From a virus: DNA of 23,532 nt. The stretch spans positions 22,178 through 45,709 of the IMG/VR virus record IMGVR_UViG_3300030116_003717; one strand, written 5' to 3'. The notes under the pieces were generated by a model. The model saw only the letters and a list, made by a program, of their open reading frames with translations. It was not told the DNA's origin and made no database searches. Both the position numbers and the translations under genes were made by a program. Below, piece by piece: positions 3,913 to 23,532 of the stretch; the first letter of the stretch is position 1; each line of letters starts with the position of its first letter.

Positions 3913-6900
3913 GTGATGCTGAGAAGGATAAATCTGCTGATGTATTCGTTGTGCTGACTGCTGACGTAGTTTGTTTTATGCCTAAATTATTTAGAGAGAC
4001 AGATGCATAGTTAGCGGTGTCGTTTCCTGACCCTGCGTTTCTGCTTATCTCTACCTCTATATTTGTGTTAGGGGAATTTGACCCTGCTACTCTAGCATTG
4101 AAAAGGGTTATTTGTTCGTTTACCGTGCCGGGTTGTATAAGAGCAGTCTGCGTATATGTTGCACCGTTGACAGTCACTACGGTTGATAATTCTGCTACGC
4201 CACCGTTTGAACTGAGATTGGTTGCATCTGCTACTATGTGCAATACATCAGACATAGCATTTGGTAAAGAAGTTAATGTTGTAATAAAAGAACTTGAAAA
4301 GGTTGGAGTGCCTGCATCTTCTGTTAGACCAACTCCGGGGAAAGTCATACCATTTGACCCATTCAGGGCGTTGCCGCCGGACACATCTCCTACAGGAGTA
4401 GCCCCTATAGATTGGTTAGTAGATGGTGTAGTAGATGTTCGCTCCGCACCTAATATTCTAGTTTCACCAAAGCCCATGTTGTGTTGAAAGTTATCCATCC
4501 TTCTTCTTATCCTTGCGAAGAATCCTGTGGATAAGTTATTCCCACTAATATTGTTAGAGTCTGCGCCTATTGCTCCGCTACCCCAACCCCATCCACCAGC
4601 ATACCCCGGACCTGATGGTGGGAACGTGTAAGAGGGGGGAGTCGTTAACTCTTCTACGCCCGGACTCGCAGGCGGCACATATACGGGCGGTGGATTGTCG
4701 TGGAACGTGGCCGGATAAATCGCATTAGATGGTAGGAAAGCAGTAATATTATCTGCTCTCATAGACTCATCAAGAGATAAAGTTAGATTGAGATTTTCTT
4801 TGCCTGTTCCTGATAACGACCATTCAACATTTTTTATGACAAAAGTTTCATCATTGTATCCCAACCCCGCATCGGTGAGTTTTATAAATGTAGCGGGGGT
4901 ATAAGACAAATCCTTTACCATGTGTATACGAGGCGCATTCCAAATAGCGCGAGAGGCCGCACCATGAAACATATAAAACTCTTCGTGCATTCTGCCACCG
5001 AGAGGGAATATAGAGTCTGTGTTTCCTGTGGTAATATTACCATTGGCCGTGCCTGCGGTAATACCCGGAAGCGTGTTAGCAGATTTAAATATGTTAGCAG
5101 ATGTTGGGTCGCCGCACCTGTGTCTTAGTAAATCCCTACAGTATTCAGCATTGAAAGAGACTATAATTTTTCTTGTAGGATTAAAAGCAGAACCACCGTT
5201 GTTCCAATATGATAACGGTAAAACTAATTCATAGAAACCGCTTTCTTTTACTACTGCACGACTATATCGAGAAGCACCCGTCATAGAATGAGTGCCGCCC
5301 GAATCACTAATATCTGCGGCCTTTACTTTACCACTACTAGCACCAAAAGCATAATCAACTACCCATATACAAAATTCTGCGTCATCTATCTGAGTAGCGT
5401 TTGTTTGATTTTCTTTAGGTGTGACAAAAACTCTTAATTCGTGTCCGGTTTCCTCACTAACAAGAGGACAATGGTTTGGAACATGGACTACCTGAACCGC
5501 GTGGCTAACCGAGTGAGAGCCATACCAATAGAAGTTATTGTTCCATGCAATATCAGTTGCGCTTGTGTTTGCTTGTGAGTAGCCGGATTTACCCCACCTG
5601 TTAAAAGCGGTTCCGTTAGTGCCAAGATTACCGTCAAGTGCGTTGCTCATGCCCGTAAAGAGAGAGCCGCCTGTTCCCAAACGAGTCCAACTATGGGGCT
5701 TTATAGATGTATCTGCTTTACCTTGTAATGCTATGTATGGGTCAGCGATGTATCCATACCTACCGGTCTGTATCAATTTAGAATCTATCAGACTAGTAGC
5801 GCTATCTTCTACATAAGCAGTATCGATTGGTTCTATAGAAATAACCGCATTAGTCTTTCTGCTTGCATTGTATTCTTTTTGTGCTAATCTATACGCTTCT
5901 TTTTCTAATTTAATTGTTGGGAACTCTAAGGTTTTCCATCTTGTGGTCGAACTAATTGTTCCCTTTGGATAATCTACAAAGTTTTTATTATCGTTATAAT
6001 AAACCCTTACGTTTGTCACTACTCCCGACACATTAGTTTTAAGACTGTTTACTTTCATGTTATTTCTATCAAACACCATACCGCTATTATATTTTGGTCT
6101 TAATTCTATTCTACTATCTCTTCCCGAAAGCCAAGAGAAAGAGGTGTGATGATTGTTGATAGTCCCAAAGCCTGCACTTCTTTGTATATTCTTGAGACTA
6201 TTCAAAAGATTGCCGGTTCCAATATTTAGCACACCGCCATACAAATCATTATTAGTTGTTCCGCCATCAGAAGTCATTAAATTAGTATTAGGTATATTAT
6301 TAATGTCATAGAGAGAGGCAAGTCGAGTTCTAGGGTTCCAATTTTTTGTTAACCCTGCGTTCCATAATGTTCTAACTTTATCGCTATCAGCGTAAGTCCC
6401 AATATTTTCTGCTTCTACTACGCCTTCTAAATGCATTATCATTCTTGTAATAATATTTGCGCCGGTCCATATAGTGCTACTAACAGTCACAGTTTCCCAA
6501 TCGTAATCTCCATCACCATCAGTTCCATCTTTTACACTTACGGCATTTTGTGAACCAACATAACCACCTGTTAAAGTATGTAAATAACGAAGGTTTGCTA
6601 ATCTATTATCTATAGTATCTCCACTTGCTTCTTCCCATAGGGGATTACTATGAGTCCACAAGCCACCTAGTTGCACAGGTATAGTCCAATCATCGTTTAC
6701 ACTCCACGTTGCCGACCCTGTGACTCCCCTATTAATAATTAATTCATCTACATCATAACCGCTTTGTCCTGTATTACCATCTCCTACTTCTATAATTTTA
6801 TGTTTAACTCCGGTAGTATCGTTTATTATCATCATACCGGGTTCTATGCCCAACTCTTCCCAATTTGTTGCAGAACCGTCAAAAGTAGTTAATTGAAGTT

Positions 6901-11446: not shown

Positions 11447-14400
11447 CTATATAGTCTGACTCATTGTTGATGTCAAATTAACTCCCCTCATGGTTGCCCC
11501 TCTTTCTACGTGGTCTAATATTTCTTGCGCTACTTGTTCGGTTGTCATTCCATTGAAGTTGTTAGTCATTATAACTTCTGTGTTTACTAATAAATGTTCC
11601 ACTCCACGATTGACAACCTGCCTTACTAGGTCGCCTGTCACGTTGGATTGGTTCATACCATAGAACAACTCTTCTCTAGCATTATTAAACTCTATGAGGG
11701 AACGGGTAGCCATTTCCATACTACCTGCAACCATCGCAGCATCATTTTCCATACTATCTGCAAGGTCGCCCATAGACCTAGCGTTTGCTTGTATTGCCTG
11801 ATAGATTGCTTCCGCACCTTCTTTTTGGCTTATTTCTATAAATCTTACTAAGTCTTCATATTCTTCCAATACTTTTTCTGCCGACTTAATCTCGTCACGT
11901 TGTCCCTGTAATAAGAAATCTGTAAAGGGTCCAAATTTTGCCCGCATTCCCCACGGCTCTTCTACACCCCTTTCTATTCTTTTTTGTGCATCTAACACTT
12001 TTTGCACATCTTCTTCTACTATATCACCTGCTGCTATTTCTGAGAATTTAGCCTCAAACGCATCTCCATAGGTTTCTGCTAAGTTTGCTTGCTCTTCTGC
12101 CAACTTCTTAGATTCTGCGGTGGTTCCGGCAGCAAACTCACTTGCTTTTCCTCTTGCCGTGTCATACATATCTGCTAAGTCTGAAAGAGCCAACTCTTCA
12201 TTATTAATAGTATCTAAGAACAATTGGCTATCTGTCTGAGCGTAATCAAAAATTGTCTGCCCTAAGTCTTCCATAGATTCTTGTCTCTTCTTTTCTTGTC
12301 TATTTAAGAGCAGATAAATACCGCCCAATGCTGCAAGGGCTAGTCCGGCCGTGGCTACTGCTGCTATTGCTGCCGCGTTTGCTGCTACTTGAGCAGCCGC
12401 CTGTGCGATTAGCGCTCTTGTTTTTGCTTTTATGCCAATAGTTTCTATTGCTTCCACAGTTGTTTTTGTTCCGCTAACTTTAGTTGCCGTTTTGGTTGTA
12501 AAAGTGCTTGTTATCATAGCAAAGATGTTTTTGTATATTACATTATTTTTTAGAAGCATTCCCGCGTTGTCTTTTTTATCAGCAAGAGTTTTAGCAACAG
12601 TAGCCGCCGCTAATGATAATTGTTTGCCGGTTAAAGCCACGGTTGCTGCTATATTAAGACTCATACCTAATCTGTTTATTTTTTGATTGTCGCTTAAAGT
12701 CATCATCGCACTACCCAAAGCAAATGCCGCACCTGCACCTGCATACAACAACTGTGCTTGTTCTGCTGCTTCTTTATTAAGACGGTCTGTTTCTTCTCTT
12801 TCTGCTATAAGTGCTGCGAGTCTTTGTTCTGATAACTCTCCTGATAGTTTTTCCGTGCTTGCTTGGGTTTGGTCTAATAAATAACCCTGTGCTTGTAAAG
12901 TGCTATTAAATTCTTCATATTCTGACTCTAACATCTCTATTTGATTCTCAAGTTCTCTATATTCTTGGGTATTTTGTTGCACACCCTCTTTCTCCAATTG
13001 TCTTACAACCGCTTGCCTTCGGTTTTCTGTTATGAAGTCCTTTGTGGTTTGAACATTACCTTCCATTACTTTTTGTCTTTCCATGTATGTGCCTAATAAC
13101 TCTTCTGCATCTTTTATTTCTTGGTCTGACCATCTTGTAATTTCTTGCCCTTGTTGTCTTGCTCCTATTAGATAAGATTGTTGGATTTGACTTAAATCTC
13201 TTGTGTGTTCTAAAGCCTGCACAAACTGTCCGTTGGCATTACCAAATGCCCCTTCTAGCATCAGTTGTTCGCCGGCCATAGCCCTTGTGACTGCTCTTTG
13301 GGCTTGGAAAGCAACAGTTAGCGCAGCAACATTAGTCACAACGCTAAACAAAGGCACTACTATGTTTTTCATATTGATGCCTATAGTTGCTAAACCTGTT
13401 CCCATCGGACCAAGAGCATTTAGTAAATTAATAACTTCGTTTGTAAACGCCCCTTGAGCCTGTGCTGCATTAGTCATAGCGGGTAAGAAAGCATCACCTA
13501 ACTCCGCCCTATAGTTTTCCAATTCAGCAGTTGCGGCCCTATATTTTGTAATTGGTGCATCAGTCCTGTTTGCTACTTCCTCAAGAGCAGGGAACATAGC
13601 CATCTGCGCTTCTGTTGCTAACTGCACAGACCTTTCATAGTTATTCATCAGTTTGATAAACCTTGTATAGTGTCTGTTTCCGGCAACGCTTTGCGCTATA
13701 GCCTGTCTTTCATTGGCTTCTAATGTCGCCCATAGTGGAGCCAAGTCAGCCATAATTTTTGAAAGAGGTCTTAGATTGTCATTAGAATCTAATACTGCTA
13801 TATTGTATCCTTCTAATTCTCTTCTAGCACCATTTATATCAGCACCAAGTCTAGCATACACCATCTTTAAAGCACGACCGGCTTTGCCTTGTTCCTCACC
13901 CGTTTCAATTAGAACGGCTGACTGCGCTGCCATCATCGCTATACTTTCACCTGTCAGATGTGCCTGTGATGCGAATTGATTCATAACGAAGGTGACTTGC
14001 TCCATTGTGGAAGCCGACCGGTTTTCAATGGTGTTGAGTTGGTCCATAACTCTTAGGGTGTTTTCCCTAATGGCGTTTCCTTTTGCTTCCGCATCGGCTA
14101 AGTCTTCTGTCCCTTCCGTCATAAAGTATAACTGCTGATTCAAGTTGATTAGTCTTTGCATGGCGGCTTCGGTTTCCATACCACTTATCAGACCAAACTC
14201 CATACCCAATTGCGTTCCTACTTCTGTCTGCCCTTCACCTAGCACAGAAGCCAACTGTGCCATTTTAGCGGCTGCTAATATGGCTTGGTCGCCGGTAAAC
14301 CCAAATTCCACACCTATTTCCCTTACGCCTTCTGCTATAGAATCTAAGTCCTCACCTTCTGCTAAGAATTTCGCAAGTTCAATTTCAGCATCGGCCATCG

Positions 14401-14677
14401 CCTCAGTCATAGGTAAAACTTCATTTATAACAGATTCAAAACCTGTTCCTATTACATCTATAGAATCTTGCATATTAGCAAATGTGTCTAGCATTATAGC
14501 GTTAAACACAGTCATAGATGTTTCTGCATCTTTGATAAGTTTAGCGGCTTGGAAACGACCTACCACATCGAAGAAGACCATTGATGCGCCTGCTCGATTA
14601 ACAAGCATGGCAACTGCCATAGCCATTATAGCAAATATAGCCCACGGTCCTGAAAGGACAAACCCGCTTTCAATCAT
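11447..14677 (-). CDS. Tail tape measure protein, 1076 aa
   Basis: Sets tail length and fills the tail tube; during infection such proteins are ejected and may help cross the membrane. Residues about 8-28 are a hydrophobic helix (GPWAIFAIMAMAVAML). Residues about 110-350 match the phage tape-measure core of alternating helices, including FGFTGDQAILAAAKMA, SASTMEQVTFVMNQFA, HLTGESIAMMAA and EEQGKAGRALKMVYARLGAD. Long coiled-coil segments follow, with hydrophobic alanine-rich stretches near 640-720 and 755-795 (ending GLALAALGGIYLLL), and a helical C-terminus. An in-frame TTG at 14680 is possible, but ATG 14677 is preferred; GGTGGAG lies about 13 bases upstream. By the usual rule of about 1.5 angstrom per residue, the tail would be roughly 160 nm long. 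It follows the two chaperone frames and precedes the hub, exactly the siphovirus order. Confidence 0.92.
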   Translation of the reverse strand: MIESGFVLSGPWAIFAIMAMAVAMLVNRAGASMVFFDVVGRFQAAKLIKDAETSMTVFNAIMLDTFANMQDSIDVIGTGFESVINEVLPMTEAMADAEIELAKFLAEGEDLDSIAEGVREIGVEFGFTGDQAILAAAKMAQLASVLGEGQTEVGTQLGMEFGLISGMETEAAMQRLINLNQQLYFMTEGTEDLADAEAKGNAIRENTLRVMDQLNTIENRSASTMEQVTFVMNQFASQAHLTGESIAMMAAQSAVLIETGEEQGKAGRALKMVYARLGADINGARRELEGYNIAVLDSNDNLRPLSKIMADLAPLWATLEANERQAIAQSVAGNRHYTRFIKLMNNYERSVQLATEAQMAMFPALEEVANRTDAPITKYRAATAELENYRAELGDAFLPAMTNAAQAQGAFTNEVINLLNALGPMGTGLATIGINMKNIVVPLFSVVTNVAALTVAFQAQRAVTRAMAGEQLMLEGAFGNANGQFVQALEHTRDLSQIQQSYLIGARQQGQEITRWSDQEIKDAEELLGTYMERQKVMEGNVQTTKDFITENRRQAVVRQLEKEGVQQNTQEYRELENQIEMLESEYEEFNSTLQAQGYLLDQTQASTEKLSGELSEQRLAALIAEREETDRLNKEAAEQAQLLYAGAGAAFALGSAMMTLSDNQKINRLGMSLNIAATVALTGKQLSLAAATVAKTLADKKDNAGMLLKNNVIYKNIFAMITSTFTTKTATKVSGTKTTVEAIETIGIKAKTRALIAQAAAQVAANAAAIAAVATAGLALAALGGIYLLLNRQEKKRQESMEDLGQTIFDYAQTDSQLFLDTINNEELALSDLADMYDTARGKASEFAAGTTAESKKLAEEQANLAETYGDAFEAKFSEIAAGDIVEEDVQKVLDAQKRIERGVEEPWGMRAKFGPFTDFLLQGQRDEIKSAEKVLEEYEDLVRFIEISQKEGAEAIYQAIQANARSMGDLADSMENDAAMVAGSMEMATRSLIEFNNAREELFYGMNQSNVTGDLVRQVVNRGVEHLLVNTEVIMTNNFNGMTTEQVAQEILDHVERGATMRGVNLTSTMSQTI

Positions 14678-14732
14678 CAAACTGCATCCACTCCACCTAC
14701 TGCCTTACGGCCCACTACATATTACGCTAATA

Positions 14733-15017
14733 CTAAGTGTCTGATAAATCTTCTTGCTGACGCTTTCTTGCCTCACGCCTAGCGTTTCTTCGCGCTATTA
14801 CATCACTTGCATCATTAGCGGTTAGTGTTTTCAGGCCACCCGCCCCTTCTTTTACCTTAGCGGAGTTATGTATTTCTGCTAATTTATCATTGATGTCCAT
14901 AGCAATATGTATATCTAATTCCATTAGATACCTACCGCCTTCTTGGTTGTATTTCAACCATAATTCAGAAGGGGTTGTGCCTTTGAAGGTCATGCATAGT
15001 GAGGGAGCCACCCTCAC
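14733..15017 (-). CDS. Tail assembly chaperone, second frame (lambda T-like), likely made by -1 frameshift
   Basis: This frame encodes 94 residues from a GTG at 15017 that overlaps the stop codon of the preceding chaperone frame (GTGA). It is open upstream of the GTG and lies in the -1 frame relative to that gene. A slippery site and stem-loop sit just before and at the junction, so the main product is probably the C-terminal part of a 210-aa fusion rather than a separate protein. Residues 15-50 look helical (PSELWLKYNQEGGRYLMEL), with a Gly/Thr linker, and the C-terminus is a highly charged helix (ARRNARREARKRQQEDL). In lambda and many siphophages the G and GT chaperones bind the tape measure during tail assembly. 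The location just before the tape-measure gene matches that role. Independent initiation at GTG by coupling is the alternative. Confidence 0.8.
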   Translation of the reverse strand: MRVAPSLCMTFKGTTPSELWLKYNQEGGRYLMELDIHIAMDINDKLAEIHNSAKVKEGAGGLKTLTANDASDVIARRNARREARKRQQEDLSDT

Positions 15018-15032
15018 GAACTCAAAAAATTT
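14999..15032 (-). promoter_or_regulatory. Programmed -1 ribosomal frameshift signal (slippery site plus stem-loop)
   Basis: Reading on the minus strand, the first chaperone frame contains A AAT TTT (15032-15026) overlapping T TTT TTG (15029-15023); both fit the X XXY YYZ slippery pattern in the zero frame. After a spacer of eight or five bases, GTGAGGG (15017-15011), loop TGGCT, and CCCTCAC (15005-14999) form a perfect 7-bp stem. Slipping by -1 replaces the final LSS-stop with FEFV and continues directly into the second chaperone frame without a stop. The second gene's GTG and the first gene's TGA lie within the stem. This is the standard layout for the G/GT frameshift of tailed viruses. Confidence 0.8.
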
Positions 15033-15364
15033 ACTGCACCTTCCTCATCGTCACCACGAACGAAGGATAGCACAGGCATTAACTCGTCAACTGTAAATAG
15101 ATTTACGTCAAAAGTTTCATCTAAGCAACAAGGCACTAGCCATTGTTCTATCTGAGCCATAATACCGGCTCCCGCCTCATCAAGAGCATCACCAAACTCT
15201 ATGTTAGTATCCTCATCCCACTTTTCGGGTTCGCCCTTATCAGCAAACTTTCTGAATACCCTTGCTTGGGCGTTGCTTATCTTCAACTTCTCGATACCGG
15301 ATGCTTGTCGCACCCATATTTTTGTTCCATCATCTAACTCAAATTCTTTCTTCTTTATTGGCAT
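15014..15364 (-). CDS. Tail assembly chaperone, first frame (lambda G-like), 116 aa
   Basis: Probably the abundant tail assembly chaperone that keeps the tape measure soluble. The protein starts as a beta strand pair (KEFELDDGTKIWVRQASG), then becomes mostly helical (EKLKISNAQARVFRKFAD), acidic in the middle, and ends with FTVDELMPVLSFVRGDDEEG. That fold order is seen in many phage tail chaperones, although sequence identity in this family is always low; assignment rests mainly on gene order (after the tail tube, before the tape measure) and on the frameshift signal at its 3' end. The ATG at 15364 follows GGAAGTGGAG about eight bases upstream. A small frame overlaps its first 26 bases. Two adjacent cysteines (VPCCLD) are visible. 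Confidence 0.8.
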   Translation of the reverse strand: MPIKKKEFELDDGTKIWVRQASGIEKLKISNAQARVFRKFADKGEPEKWDEDTNIEFGDALDEAGAGIMAQIEQWLVPCCLDETFDVNLFTVDELMPVLSFVRGDDEEGAVNFLSS

Positions 15365-15698: not shown

Positions 15699-15926
15699 TC
15701 ACTCCCCCTTCTTAGCAGCCTTTTTCTTAGGGGCCGCCTTTTTCTTAGGTGCGGCTTTCTTTGGCTTTTCTAATTCTTTGAAAGCATCTGCATATTGTGG
15801 CATCTCACCGTGTGGAAGGTCTTGAACTGCTCTAATGGCCTCATCTCTATCCATAGCCAATAATTCTTCCATCATGGCATCGGGAATTAATCTTCCTAAT
15901 CTGTAAAGAAAGTTTGCTTCGACCAT
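15699..15926 (-). CDS. Small protein with Lys/Ala/Pro repeat tail, 75 aa
   Basis: Residues 1-50 are mostly helical (NFLYRLGRLIPDAMMEELL, then DEAIRAVQDL). Residues 54-75 are a low-complexity basic tail of repeated KKAAPK units ending in KKGE. Such histone-H1-like tails bind nucleic acids or acidic surfaces. The ATG at 15926 follows AGGTGA with a five-base spacer and lies eight bases after the tail tube stop, so it is translated from the same transcript. In phages a short gene between tail tube and G/GT is sometimes an additional chaperone or tail-tube-associated protein, but I do not recognise this one. The repeat at DNA level (repeated CCTTTTTCTTAGG on the plus strand) could vary in length between strains. 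Confidence 0.75.
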   Translation of the reverse strand: MVEANFLYRLGRLIPDAMMEELLAMDRDEAIRAVQDLPHGEMPQYADAFKELEKPKKAAPKKKAAPKKKAAKKGE

Positions 15927-15934
15927 CTAATCAC

Positions 15935-17632
15935 CTAGTAGTCGGAAGTCTGCAACTGTGCGCCCTTCATCTTAACTTCAATGGCTTTGTCTGCTCCGTC
16001 TGCTCTTGAATCATAGAAGGCTTGGAATCCTACAGACATTCGGGCAGGGTCACGACCGCTAACCGAGGCAGTAGGGGCTTCAAATCGCACGTTAAAGAGG
16101 TTAATCTCCAAGTAGTCAGAATCATCCCTGTCAGCATCTTGGAACTTAAACTTTAGAGCAGGCTTACCCTTACCGCTATGAATCTTGTGAACCGCAGTTG
16201 CGGTAGCCAATTCTTCGTAGGTAGGCTCGCCTACAGATGTAGCATCATTGTTGTAAAGAATTTCGTTAAACTCCATTGTTCCTGTAATCTCTCTAGTCCT
16301 TGAGGGTGGGATTCTCGTAATACTGTTAGAACCTACTGCGTAAGCCGAATCAAGGTCACGGTTGATGTTAATCTCAAGACTGACCGATTGAATCTTGGTA
16401 GTGGTAGCCTCTTGGCCGTCAACATACAACTCAGCGCCGGAGAAGTGAAGTGCATCCACATCATTACCGGAATAAGAAACATTCTCTTGAATTGCGCTTG
16501 GTGCTTGTTCTGCTTGTCCGAGGAAGTCCACGGAAGCCATCACATACTCGTTTAGGTTTGCGCTAAGAGAAAGCCTTGTAGTCACCATACCCGTAAATGT
16601 GTGTTCCTTAGACTCCCTACCAATTCTAACTGTGTAGGATGGGTAAAACTCAGTAGTTAGTGTTGGCTCAAGGAAAATGTGTTGTGTATCCACACCAAGA
16701 GCAGCAAAAGCACCCGTTGGGGCAGAATATCCCGCATTCTCAAGAGCGGCTGCTCCGGTAAAATCACCGTCTGCGGTATTAGTAGGCTCTACCAAATCAA
16801 GGTTTGAAGACAGTCCTGTATGGAATGGGTTAGTAATAAATCCATAGAATCGACCCGGCTCAATACCGTGTAGTTTTGTCCCATTGAAATATTGAATAAC
16901 GGCTATACTTGCCGTGACTGCGGCATTAGGTGTGACTCTAGTGGTAAAGGTTCCATCTGAGTAAGCCTTAGCGCCGGTCAAGTGATTGTTAGCGTGGTCT
17001 ACACCCGAATAACTGAAATAAAATCCGGCAGCAGTTGTTCCATCAGTAGGCGCACCTACAATACCGTAGCCCAAGTTAGATGCGCTAACAGGCAAACCGT
17101 TAACAGTTTCCCAAGCAGAACCGTTTGAGATTGATGCCAATTCAAGGTTGCCGCCGGTATTGCCTGCGGCCAATGGTGTGCCGTAATCGTGGTTAGAGCC
17201 GGGAACGGCCCCCATTATACCATTCTTAATTTCGTAATATCCTATTTCAAGGTTGCTATCAGAAACATCCTTTATCAAACCGCTTGATATGGTGGAAGAT
17301 GCTCCCCATCCATATCCCCTGTTTGTAAAAGTAATTTTATCGTAAAATAACTTGTGAATCCTCTTTGGGAAAAACGATGCTATAATGTTTCCCATAAAGT
17401 TGTCAGGTTGAACGGCAAAGTTAATTGAACCCTCGGTGTATCGAGTGTTCGTGACGGCCTTTGAAGCCACCTGCCTTGCCATATCCGACCTTACTAACAA
17501 ATCGAAAGTTGCTTTAAACGATTCGTCATCAACTTCTCCAAATACCTGTGTTCCTGATGCTTCTTCTCCATAGGTGTTCTGTCCTTCTTTGTCGATGGAA
17601 ACATACCTATTTAACCATTCTGCGCCTGCCAT
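15935..17632 (-). CDS. Major tail tube protein with inserted domain, 565 aa
   Basis: Likely polymerises into the tail tube. The C-terminal part (about 330-565) has typical tail-tube features: a strand/hairpin series with YPSYTVRIGRES, TTRLSLSANLNEYVMASVDF, a ruler-like pair TTKIQSVSLEINI and NRDLDSAYAVGSNSITRI, TREITGTMEFNEI, and a closing strand region LEINLFNVRFEAP. The N-terminal 115 residues (DDESFKATFDLLVR onward) also look like tube strands. Residues about 130-320 are Gly/Asn/Ser/Thr-rich and probably form an extra outward-facing domain, because tail tube proteins usually have only about 150-250 residues (lambda gpV is 246). The ATG at 17632 is preceded by GAGGT with a six-base spacer and by its own TATA-like box, fitting a highly expressed protein. 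No sheath gene accompanies it. Confidence 0.85.
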   Translation of the reverse strand: MAGAEWLNRYVSIDKEGQNTYGEEASGTQVFGEVDDESFKATFDLLVRSDMARQVASKAVTNTRYTEGSINFAVQPDNFMGNIIASFFPKRIHKLFYDKITFTNRGYGWGASSTISSGLIKDVSDSNLEIGYYEIKNGIMGAVPGSNHDYGTPLAAGNTGGNLELASISNGSAWETVNGLPVSASNLGYGIVGAPTDGTTAAGFYFSYSGVDHANNHLTGAKAYSDGTFTTRVTPNAAVTASIAVIQYFNGTKLHGIEPGRFYGFITNPFHTGLSSNLDLVEPTNTADGDFTGAAALENAGYSAPTGAFAALGVDTQHIFLEPTLTTEFYPSYTVRIGRESKEHTFTGMVTTRLSLSANLNEYVMASVDFLGQAEQAPSAIQENVSYSGNDVDALHFSGAELYVDGQEATTTKIQSVSLEININRDLDSAYAVGSNSITRIPPSRTREITGTMEFNEILYNNDATSVGEPTYEELATATAVHKIHSGKGKPALKFKFQDADRDDSDYLEINLFNVRFEAPTASVSGRDPARMSVGFQAFYDSRADGADKAIEVKMKGAQLQTSDY

Positions 17633-21783: not shown

Positions 21784-21957
21784 TTATTCACAAGAACATT
21801 CCTGTTCCATTACAGTATATACATCTCCATCGCCTGAGTTTTCTTCGACAATAAATAACTTACAAACAGAACATTCTGCATACACTTTAATATTAGAAAC
21901 ATTTGCCATAATATTATGTATTTCTTGTTCTGTTAAATTCTTATGCACTACCGCCAT
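21784..21957 (-). CDS. 57-aa zinc-ribbon miniprotein after the fibre gene
   Basis: ATG at 21957 overlaps the fibre stop by one base (TGATG) and the frame runs 57 codons to TAA at 21784-21786. Residues 8-20 are a helix (LTEQEIHNIMANV). Then come C29-x2-C32 (CSVC), a strand-loop segment with an acidic GDGD, and C54-x-C56 (CSCE) at the end, the layout of a zinc ribbon. It lies between the tail fibre and a promoter. Function unknown; its cysteine arrangement is like that of the 51-aa protein at 1690 (CxxC followed much later by CxC), so the two may be distant relatives. Confidence 0.65.
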   Translation of the reverse strand: MAVVHKNLTEQEIHNIMANVSNIKVYAECSVCKLFIVEENSGDGDVYTVMEQECSCE

Positions 21958-23532
21958 CAATTACCACCTTCCAATTCTTTTACTCTTGCGCTTAATTCTT
22001 GAACCGCCTTAACAAGATAACCTACTATCCCTGCCGTCTTAATTGTTTTCTCTCCTTCTATCCCATTAACCAAGTCAGGCAATACTTCCTCGACTTCTTG
22101 TGCTATAAAACCTGCGCTTGGTTGGTTATTTACCTGCACATCCCAATTAAAAGTGACAGGATTGAGTTGTTCAATCATACCTAAACCATTTGGGATAGTT
22201 TTAATATTAGATTTTAATGCTCTATCTGATGTGTCATTGAAATTACCATCAATTTCTAAATTATCTTTTATTGTCATAGCCGTGTCCACATCTTGGTTTG
22301 AAGAAGCAGAACCATATACCTTAAACACCATTTTGTGTTTCCTACTCCAAGATGTTTGAGAAACAACGTGTATAGAAGAAAACTTTCTTCCTTCTTCTGA
22401 ATTGCCCCAACCACTTAGTTTAAATTTTATACCTACACCGGCATAATTACTACTTGCATTACGCCCATTGACTACTTGAAGGGGATATGTCACTCCTTCG
22501 CCTGTGGATTGCGCTCCTACTGCAAAACACCTACCAAAATCTTGTTGATTCATCTGCGCTCCGCCATCGTGCAAAACATATAGTGAGGCTTGGTCTGCAT
22601 CGGTGTCGTCTTCACGAATACGAATCATATCATTATCCATATTTGCATCGTCTTTATTTCTAGTGAGATACAACCCTATACCGCTTGTCGATGTGACAGT
22701 CCACGTTGGGTTGCTTGCCAAGTTAGCATCGGCATCTATGCTACCACCGCCACCACCGCTTTCATCGGCCCATTCTAAGGTTGTTCCACTTGAAGGCCAT
22801 TTAAGAACTTGGCCCGAAGTCCCTGCTGAACCGGGAATAATGTAAGCATCGTTTATCTCAAGACCCGTTGCATCTGAGTATAATTTGAGCCTTTCAACCG
22901 GCGCACCACTTGATTGAGTGCTGAAGCCGGAATAATAGGTCAAGTTATTCTCATTGACGATTCTCCAATCACAGTAATTGTCACCACTTCCCCAAGTATC
23001 ATGCGCCCCTCTCATCATCTCTATTCTTGGTGCAGGGCTACTGTCCGTATCTGCATGGACTTTTATAGTGGGGTTTGCCGTTGCTTGTTGTAGGTTGATG
23101 TCGCCGCCGAAGTTAACACCAGCAGAAAAAGTTGCTACTCCGTTGTTGTAAATAGTCAATCTATCACTCCCATTAGTTGTAAAGGTCATGGTGTTATTGT
23201 TGTGGTCGTAGTCAATCTTTCCGACATCTGCATCATCTGTATCCCCAAATTCTATTAGTGAATTACCCGTATTACCTGCTAAAAGACGCATAGCGACATT
23301 ATCACCCGCACTTCCTGAGTTATTTACTTCTAATTTTTGGCCGGGACTTTCTGTTCCTATTCCGACATTTCCACTACCGTTTGCGGTAATTAAGTGGTCT
23401 GCGTTCCATAGACCCATAGTGAGTATGTTGTCTGCTGACCCATCGGAAGCACTCTTCTTCTTGAACCCGAACCAAGCGGCATCATTGTTAGAGTCGTCTT
23501 GACCTATGACTATAAGATGGGTGTCACCTGAA
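21957..23532 (-). CDS. Tail fibre/spike with C-terminal peptidase S74 chaperone domain (5' end outside the window)
   Basis: A virion surface fibre that probably binds the host. The frame is open to the edge of the window, so the true start is beyond 23532; ATG 23417 is only an internal methionine (38 further residues are read before it). In residues numbered from that methionine, GNVGIGTESPGQKLEV (about 17-32) is the repeat typical of trimeric fibre shafts. Beta-rich segments with VATFSAGVNFGGDINLQ follow, then a glycine linker (SGGGGGS), another beta domain, and the last 90 residues form the S74 intramolecular chaperone: S397-D-R-A-L-K402 with the Ser-Lys catalytic pair, NPVTFNWD, AGFIAQEVEEVLPDLV, and a terminal helix YLVKAVQELSARVKELE. 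Known S74 domains trimerise the fibre and then cut themselves off just before the serine. Confidence 0.9.
   Translation of the reverse strand, partial: SGDTHLIVIGQDDSNNDAAWFGFKKKSASDGSADNILTMGLWNADHLITANGSGNVGIGTESPGQKLEVNNSGSAGDNVAMRLLAGNTGNSLIEFGDTDDADVGKIDYDHNNNTMTFTTNGSDRLTIYNNGVATFSAGVNFGGDINLQQATANPTIKVHADTDSSPAPRIEMMRGAHDTWGSGDNYCDWRIVNENNLTYYSGFSTQSSGAPVERLKLYSDATGLEINDAYIIPGSAGTSGQVLKWPSSGTTLEWADESGGGGGSIDADANLASNPTWTVTSTSGIGLYLTRNKDDANMDNDMIRIREDDTDADQASLYVLHDGGAQMNQQDFGRCFAVGAQSTGEGVTYPLQVVNGRNASSNYAGVGIKFKLSGWGNSEEGRKFSSIHVVSQTSWSRKHKMVFKVYGSASSNQDVDTAMTIKDNLEIDGNFNDTSDRALKSNIKTIPNGLGMIEQLNPVTFNWDVQVNNQPSAGFIAQEVEEVLPDLVNGIEGEKTIKTAGIVGYLVKAVQELSARVKELEGGN

Follow-up and report, generated by a model that had tools for sequence, protein, structure and literature searches.

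A very probable -1 programmed ribosomal frameshift of the G/GT type between two tail assembly chaperone genes in an uncultured tailed virus

The window analysed here (the whole stretch of 23,532 nucleotides, bases 22178-45709 of the 45.7-kb virus record IMGVR_UViG_3300030116_003717) carries on its minus strand two overlapping open reading frames (ORFs), very probably the tail assembly chaperone genes of an uncultured tailed virus with a -1 programmed ribosomal frameshift of the G/GT type between them. The zero-frame ORF (15014..15364, minus), 116 aa long and starting with ATG, would code for the N part, a gpG-like tail assembly chaperone, to judge from the ORF list, an AlphaFold2 model and its gene position. 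The second ORF (14733..15029, minus), counting 98 codons and a stop from the shift site on, lies in the -1 frame and would code for the T part, a protein conserved among relatives. The frame arrangement, a conserved shift site and a conserved hairpin are established by sequence comparison.

The 116-aa ORF ends in AAT TTT TTG AGT TCG TGA. This end contains two overlapping heptamers, A_AAT_TTT (15026..15032, minus) and T_TTT_TTG (15023..15029, minus), both of which lie in the correct zero frame (15032..15026 and 15029..15023 in the direction of reading), as the initial annotation of this DNA had claimed. The sequence and the minimum free energy (MFE) fold also bear out the 5-8 base spacer and the perfect 7-bp stem with a five-base loop that it described: the stem begins 8 nt past A_AAT_TTT and 5 nt past T_TTT_TTG (spacer 15018..15022, minus), and is formed by the arms GTGAGGG (15011..15017, minus) and CCCTCAC (14999..15005, minus) around the loop TGGCT (15006..15010, minus). 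It is the MFE structure of a 40-nt stretch (-12.7 kcal/mol, z -2.2), and 7 of 200 dinucleotide shuffles fold as well; taken alone, the window's fold is only moderately unusual. The zero-frame stop TGA (15014..15016, minus) and a GTG overlapping it (15015..15017, minus), a possible rival start of the second ORF, both fall inside the stem, in its 5' arm, again in agreement with the earlier claim. The second frame is exactly -1 and open across the junction, from 5' of the heptamer down to 14736, with 98 codons from the first TTT and the 94 previously counted from the GTG. A slip at T_TTT_TTG gives a fusion of 210 aa, the total proposed at the outset, which we recount as 114 + 96 instead of 113 + 97.

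The 7,246 codons of 17 window ORFs contain 20 in-frame heptamers of the canonical form X_XXY_YYZ, with A or T as Y, and only the two overlapping ones at the junction are followed, 4-9 nt downstream, by a perfect stem of at least 7 bp. The parts of a canonical -1 signal are all present in the window (T_TTT_TTG, a 5-nt spacer and a 7-bp stem). Such a signal is described as having a spacer of 5-9 nt and a Z that is usually not G (PMC8211752), whereas the window's Z is a G. Most ribosomes would reach the TGA and release the 116-aa N protein, while some, paused by the hairpin 5 nt downstream, would slip back one base on T_TTT_TTG and continue in the -1 frame to produce a 210-aa N-T fusion (...AVNFLEFVRVAPS...).

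Using either protein of the pair, or alignments of them, as queries against viral contigs, we were able to read 106 distinct junctions, that of the window being counted once together with the identical junction of locus L020. Four of these searches contributed the best 80 of 98, 221, 136 and 176 matches, weaker relatives lying outside the comparison, and four rows were left out: L260, which was not parsed, L257, which shares its contig with L077, L282, truncated by the end of its contig, and L013, a chance match. Of the 106 junctions, 105 place the second ORF in the -1 frame and one places it in the +1 frame; in a smaller set the count for -1 is 76 of 77. The -1-frame protein is itself conserved across relatives (alignment A4, 47 rows). 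Positions for L077, L191 and L275-L318 came from a rule already requiring CCTTTA/G and a -1 ORF, yet for L275-L318 the same site and frame were also seen without it. A search with N proteins only, blind to the junction, gave 44 newly numbered loci, seven of them on contigs already seen and one cut at the contig end; in all 43 complete junctions the site was C_CCT_TTA or C_CCT_TTG and the T ORF was in -1. That the pair is an ordinary gene broken or mis-assembled by an indel could explain the single +1 contig, IMGVR_UViG_3300025110_000229, but the arrangement common to the other 105 junctions leaves this reading with a negligible probability.

The shift site is conserved as well. Among the 106 junctions, 84 have C_CCT_TTN (C_CCT_TTG 49, C_CCT_TTA 19, C_CCT_TTT 16) and 10, those of the window's clade, have T_TTT_TTG, so that a canonical heptamer is retained in 94; 11 are imperfect and one is the +1 case. 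The initial annotation had named relatives with an intact second frame and no slippery site or stem as evidence that would count against it: what is observed is intermediate, since the stem is absent outside the window's clade but a canonical heptamer is mostly retained. Of the two heptamers that it took for slippery sites, T_TTT_TTG stands, being present in all 10 distinct junctions of the clade, and A_AAT_TTT falls: found in the window's own sequence only (1/10; the others have T_AAT_TTT in eight cases and C_AAT_TTT in one), it is unconserved, is ruled out as the shift site, and is probably incidental. In 8 of the 10 clade junctions a -1-frame stop lies directly 5' of TTTTTTG.

In the C_CCT_TTN viruses the constancy of the first heptamer base goes, to judge from codon counts, far past what codon bias would give. 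All 68 junctions with TTA or TTG after CCT have a C at the end of the codon that precedes CCT (Ile 33, Val 28, Leu 4, Pro 2, Thr 1). As a background, V/I/L/T codons preceding CCT have a final C in 31 of 199 cases in ORFs of at least 300 codons at the same 68 loci (taken from six frames, some perhaps spurious), and GTC and ATC each make up 12% of their codon families in these genes. The 68 junctions are not independent, being related by kinship, yet they are spread over deep branches of the tree.

In the window's clade the shift site is followed by a hairpin, the evidence for which is a synonymous freezing of codons and not covariation. A 7-bp Watson-Crick stem is found 3-12 nt past the site in 10/10 junctions of the clade, and all 10 members pair, a single G-U being present in one of them. 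None of the four stem codons (GTG, AGG, CCC, TCA) varies, CCC and TCA of the 3' arm being the same in 10/10 and GTG likewise in 10/10, while both loop codons vary, at third positions of the -1 frame. Such freezing (4/4) compares with 13 of 64 comparable codons (Fisher p 0.003), namely the -1-frame codons after the stem plus the zero-frame codons minus the last 12; part of the constancy of the GTG is due to the stop codon that overlaps it.

If the polymerase slipped on the T run during transcription, mixed mRNAs would result, some of them coding for the fusion, and the seven-T run of the window's clade (AAT TTT TTG) would be a suitable substrate. Nevertheless, most of the family has four or five T only (CCT TTA/TTG/TTT; two rows, L032 and L034, have CCT TTT TTG) with an identical frame arrangement, and polymerase slippage requires neither a conserved C at the first heptamer position nor a hairpin. 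We consider this explanation highly improbable.

Several observations weigh against a programmed frameshift as we read it. In 11 of the 106 junctions, all of which carry TTT, a poor P-site codon for slippage results from an A, G or T preceding CCT, or from CAT preceding TTT. No 7-bp Watson-Crick stem is found 3-12 nt past the site in any of the 96 junctions outside the window's clade (6-bp stems in 5/96; 7-bp stems with G-U allowed in 6/96). Within the clade, the invariant stem codons come from 10 related sequences, and the stem is 100% paired with one G-U wobble, six of seven pairs being invariant, and displays no covariation. The fold of the N protein also matches known chaperones weakly: the best PDB match of its AlphaFold2 model is 2OB9, the HK97 tail assembly chaperone (Foldseek E 0.068, prob 0.80), none of 159 matches is at E 0.001 or better, and a comparison with 2OB9 gives VIA Z 4.9 and a root-mean-square deviation of 4.1 over 81 residues, where a Z below 8 may mean a common arrangement only. 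Finally, the GTG overlaps the TGA in 10/10 members of the window's clade, a layout that could serve coupled re-initiation.

In this last scenario ribosomes would terminate at the TGA and begin anew at the GTG that overlaps it (GTGA), giving a separate 94-aa T protein, and the slippery run would be incidental. The relatives with TTT after CCT or CAT offer a comparable layout, 24 of 27 having an ATG at -1-frame index 5 that overlaps the stop. In the C_CCT_TTA/G junctions, however, the -1 frame offers its first in-frame start (ATG, GTG or TTG) late, at index 9 or beyond (first TTT = 0) in 53 of 68 and at 17-39 in five, yet the peptide preceding it is conserved. Throughout the family a -1-frame peptide comes after the shift site, near FxxFxxVAPSLC in the nearer groups and looser in the deeper ones. 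Moreover, in the C_CCT_TTG group the -1-frame codons before the first start change largely at silent positions, a sign that this frame is translated. Together with the retention of the first heptamer base well past codon bias, this makes re-initiation in place of a frameshift improbable. Since GTG or ATG overlaps the stop in the window's clade and in the TTT group, a little separate T protein may be made there in addition to the fusion that a -1 frameshift would yield.

Concerning the hairpin, its standing as part of the signal is upheld in the window's clade (10/10) and not as a feature of the family (0/96 elsewhere), and we reject it as a family-wide element. Aligning the junction in relatives, as had been suggested, revealed a conserved heptamer and none of the expected compensatory stem changes. 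Folding of the 45 nt downstream (z-scores from mononucleotide shuffles, at most 12 sequences per group) gave -1.5 to -4.1 in the window's clade, 0 to -1.8 in the TTT group, -0.9 to 0.4 in the next two groups and -2.5 to 2.1 in a last group of four; the RNAalifold structure of the TTT group is longer and weaker.

Two further RNA elements were noticed. Upstream of the shift site lies an AAGGTG (15037..15042, minus), which we take to resemble an archaeal Shine-Dalgarno sequence and whose codons GAA GGT GCA are invariant in the clade; as a guess, it may act as a Shine-Dalgarno-like stimulator. Past C_CCT_TTR, a candidate H-type pseudoknot can be drawn in the C_CCT_TTA/G TAG and C_CCT_TTG groups (alignment A5, columns 15-19/29-33 and 22-28/47-53; e.g. 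L041, L087 and L091). Its cells are paired in 80.1% of cases against 72.8% in shuffled alignments, leaving 20% unpaired, and its covariation is 0.229 against 0.128, a value reached by 0/500 shuffles and higher than in all six slides. Its 3 pairs changed on both sides are reached by 148/500 shuffles and its 10 further pair types by 235/500; one pair appears as U-A (8), A-U (7) and C-G (7) among 26 distinct rows. The structure was picked by eye from the same sequences, so that its fit is partly built in, and the alignment evidence for it is suggestive only.

We also analysed the history of the signal with a tree of the joined upstream and downstream proteins (105 rows, midpoint root only). In it the +1 contig groups with the window's clade (support 100/100), amid C_CCT_TTN viruses, and is placed inside the clade (support 99/87), its chaperone being 78% identical. 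Its junction reads GTA TCC TTT CGT TGA GTT with the second ORF in +1 (L100 ~5330-5345; L319 3058-3070), where a shift could take place at TTT_C. The 7-bp stem is absent from this contig, and a 6-bp stem with a G-U can be drawn; tail tube, tape measure and large downstream ORFs are intact. A pattern search for a second copy of this junction matched IMGVR_UViG_3300025110_000229 only, and because a single contig matched, an assembly or sequencing error is a possible source of the +1 arrangement.

The spread of C_CCT_TTN over the tree suggests that it is ancestral. If so, T_TTT_TTG and its hairpin would have arisen on the branch leading to the window's clade. We tentatively propose, with slightly less than even confidence, that one clade kept the fusion and swapped its means of recoding, from C_CCT_TTN to T_TTT_TTG with a new hairpin and then, in one lineage, to TTT_C followed by CGT TGA as a +1 site, the hairpin being lost. 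If true, this family would provide a natural series of frameshift-signal swaps, direction included, in a probably archaeal setting.

The tail genes of the window are arranged on the minus strand in the order tail tube, 75-aa ORF, 116-aa ORF, -1-frame ORF and tape measure. The tail tube protein (15935..17632, minus) is recognized by PF18906 Phage_tube_2 (E 2.5e-16), and the tape measure protein (11447..14680, minus) by PHROG tape measure families (best E 2.8e-21) and PF10145; these matches confirm the claimed position of the ORF pair between the two genes, with the 75-aa ORF (15699..15926, minus; from the ORF list) also in between, separating tail tube and chaperone. As an aside, the protein coded by this small ORF ends in a C-terminal lysine-alanine-proline repeat (KKAAPKKKAAPKKKAAKKGE).

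The N protein is modelled by AlphaFold2 with a predicted local distance difference test (pLDDT) score of 88, and the downstream T part is predicted to be helical (pLDDT 77). Against viral models, the N model gave one strong match, to an unnamed protein (E 1.5e-9), and several weak ones annotated as tail assembly chaperone (from E 0.004). Because of this weak chaperone-like fold and the gene order, a G/GT role of the pair appears likely. By analogy with phage lambda, N would coat the tape measure protein, and the few fusion molecules would recruit the tail tube protein through their T part.

Concerning the host, the earlier designation as an archaeal virus holds as likely only. It is favoured by an RFC small subunit (model NF001679, 1.3e-39) and a Hef-like nuclease (Hef nuclease model, 3.6e-14), both under curated cut-offs, and by a family B polymerase (PolB). 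The best PDB matches of the RFC-like clamp loader are RFC small subunits (1.7e-28), presumably archaeal entries, followed by T4 gene 44 protein (4.4e-13). Of 1271 PolB records, all 15 that were listed are haloarchaeal viruses, while the commonest name is Synechococcus (376). Against an archaeal host, or neutral, are the absence of TFIIB, PCNA and DNA_primase_S (each 0/12 related records) and the presence of MCM in 1/12. We could not find any host, provirus or relative in the genome_contigs collection. In the phages collection no named relative was found for the chaperone (tblastn, E 0.1), the tail tube, an 866-aa fibre-region ORF or a 457-aa head-region ORF, and matches of the tape measure, two fibre ORFs, a nuclease-like ORF and the terminase are distant or local, nearly all of those listed or tallied being phages of bacteria. 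The terminase of a sister record (G001) matched mostly phages of bacteria at ~25% identity, with 4 Natrialba records in the tally, and its tail fibre ORF (L320 14772..17768, minus) has a 42-aa stretch 86-88% identical to the fibres of Synechococcus phages S-CBS1 and S-CBS3, which may reflect fibre exchange or else casts doubt on the host. On balance, we consider a virus of archaea probable.

In phage lambda the slippery heptamer is G_GGA_AAG, whereas the present family carries C_CCT_TTN or T_TTT_TTG, with a tight hairpin in the window's clade. The lambda gpG/gpGT system, whose protein roles are described in PMC5009743, is similar to the window's pair in gene position, in the -1 frame and in having a small N product together with an N-T fusion. 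G-T frameshifting has also been proposed for haloarchaeal viruses, -1 in HVTV-1, HCTV-1, HCTV-2 and HCTV-5 and +1 in HSTV-2 (PMC5009743, PMC8211752). They resemble the present family in this proposed mechanism in archaeal viruses, whereas the latter is a different, uncultured group, compared here over 106 distinct junctions. Going by the proposals for HVTV-1 and HCTV-1/-2/-5, -1 frameshifting is less rare among archaeal viruses than the initial annotation implied when it called well-documented cases in archaea rare. The Saccharolobus alpha-fucosidase gene fucA1 shares with the window's signal a -1 shift, a heptamer (A_AAA_AAT) and a putative stem-loop (PMC8211752), but it is a cellular gene whose joined protein is the enzyme itself. 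In Aoguangviridae (magroviruses), tailed viruses of marine archaea, a tail assembly chaperone is marked in the genome figure (PMC10768690); the word 'frameshift' was not found in the accessible main text of that paper, and in that of PMC8651126 its sole mention is a reference on chelatase. Our literature search, in the accessible texts, found no report of frameshifting in the present virus group.

Tail-chaperone frameshifting is thus an established kind of recoding, of which the present group is a new member group. New here are the signal's presence across the family and the scale on which it was compared, the exchange of the heptamer for another that has a hairpin of its own, and a possible change of direction in one contig, which has apparently gone over to +1. 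According to PMC8211752, one cellular case of programmed -1 frameshifting is reported in archaea and the viral ones are 'seeming or appearing', so that very few tested cases underlie what is held about frameshifting in this domain. In this family one and the same signal exists in 106 distinct natural versions, which come with a clear test peptide, in two or more RNA contexts (hairpin present or absent), and with one apparent direction change. For annotators, the chaperone pair should be joined.

Two other genes may be mentioned. A Peptidase_S74 domain (chaperone of endosialidase) ends the protein coded at 21957..23417 (minus) of the window. L117 2705..3205 (plus; ~21.7-22.2 kb of G000, touching the window's first bases) codes for a Mom-like protein (PF25680, E 1e-45), probably with a role in DNA modification.
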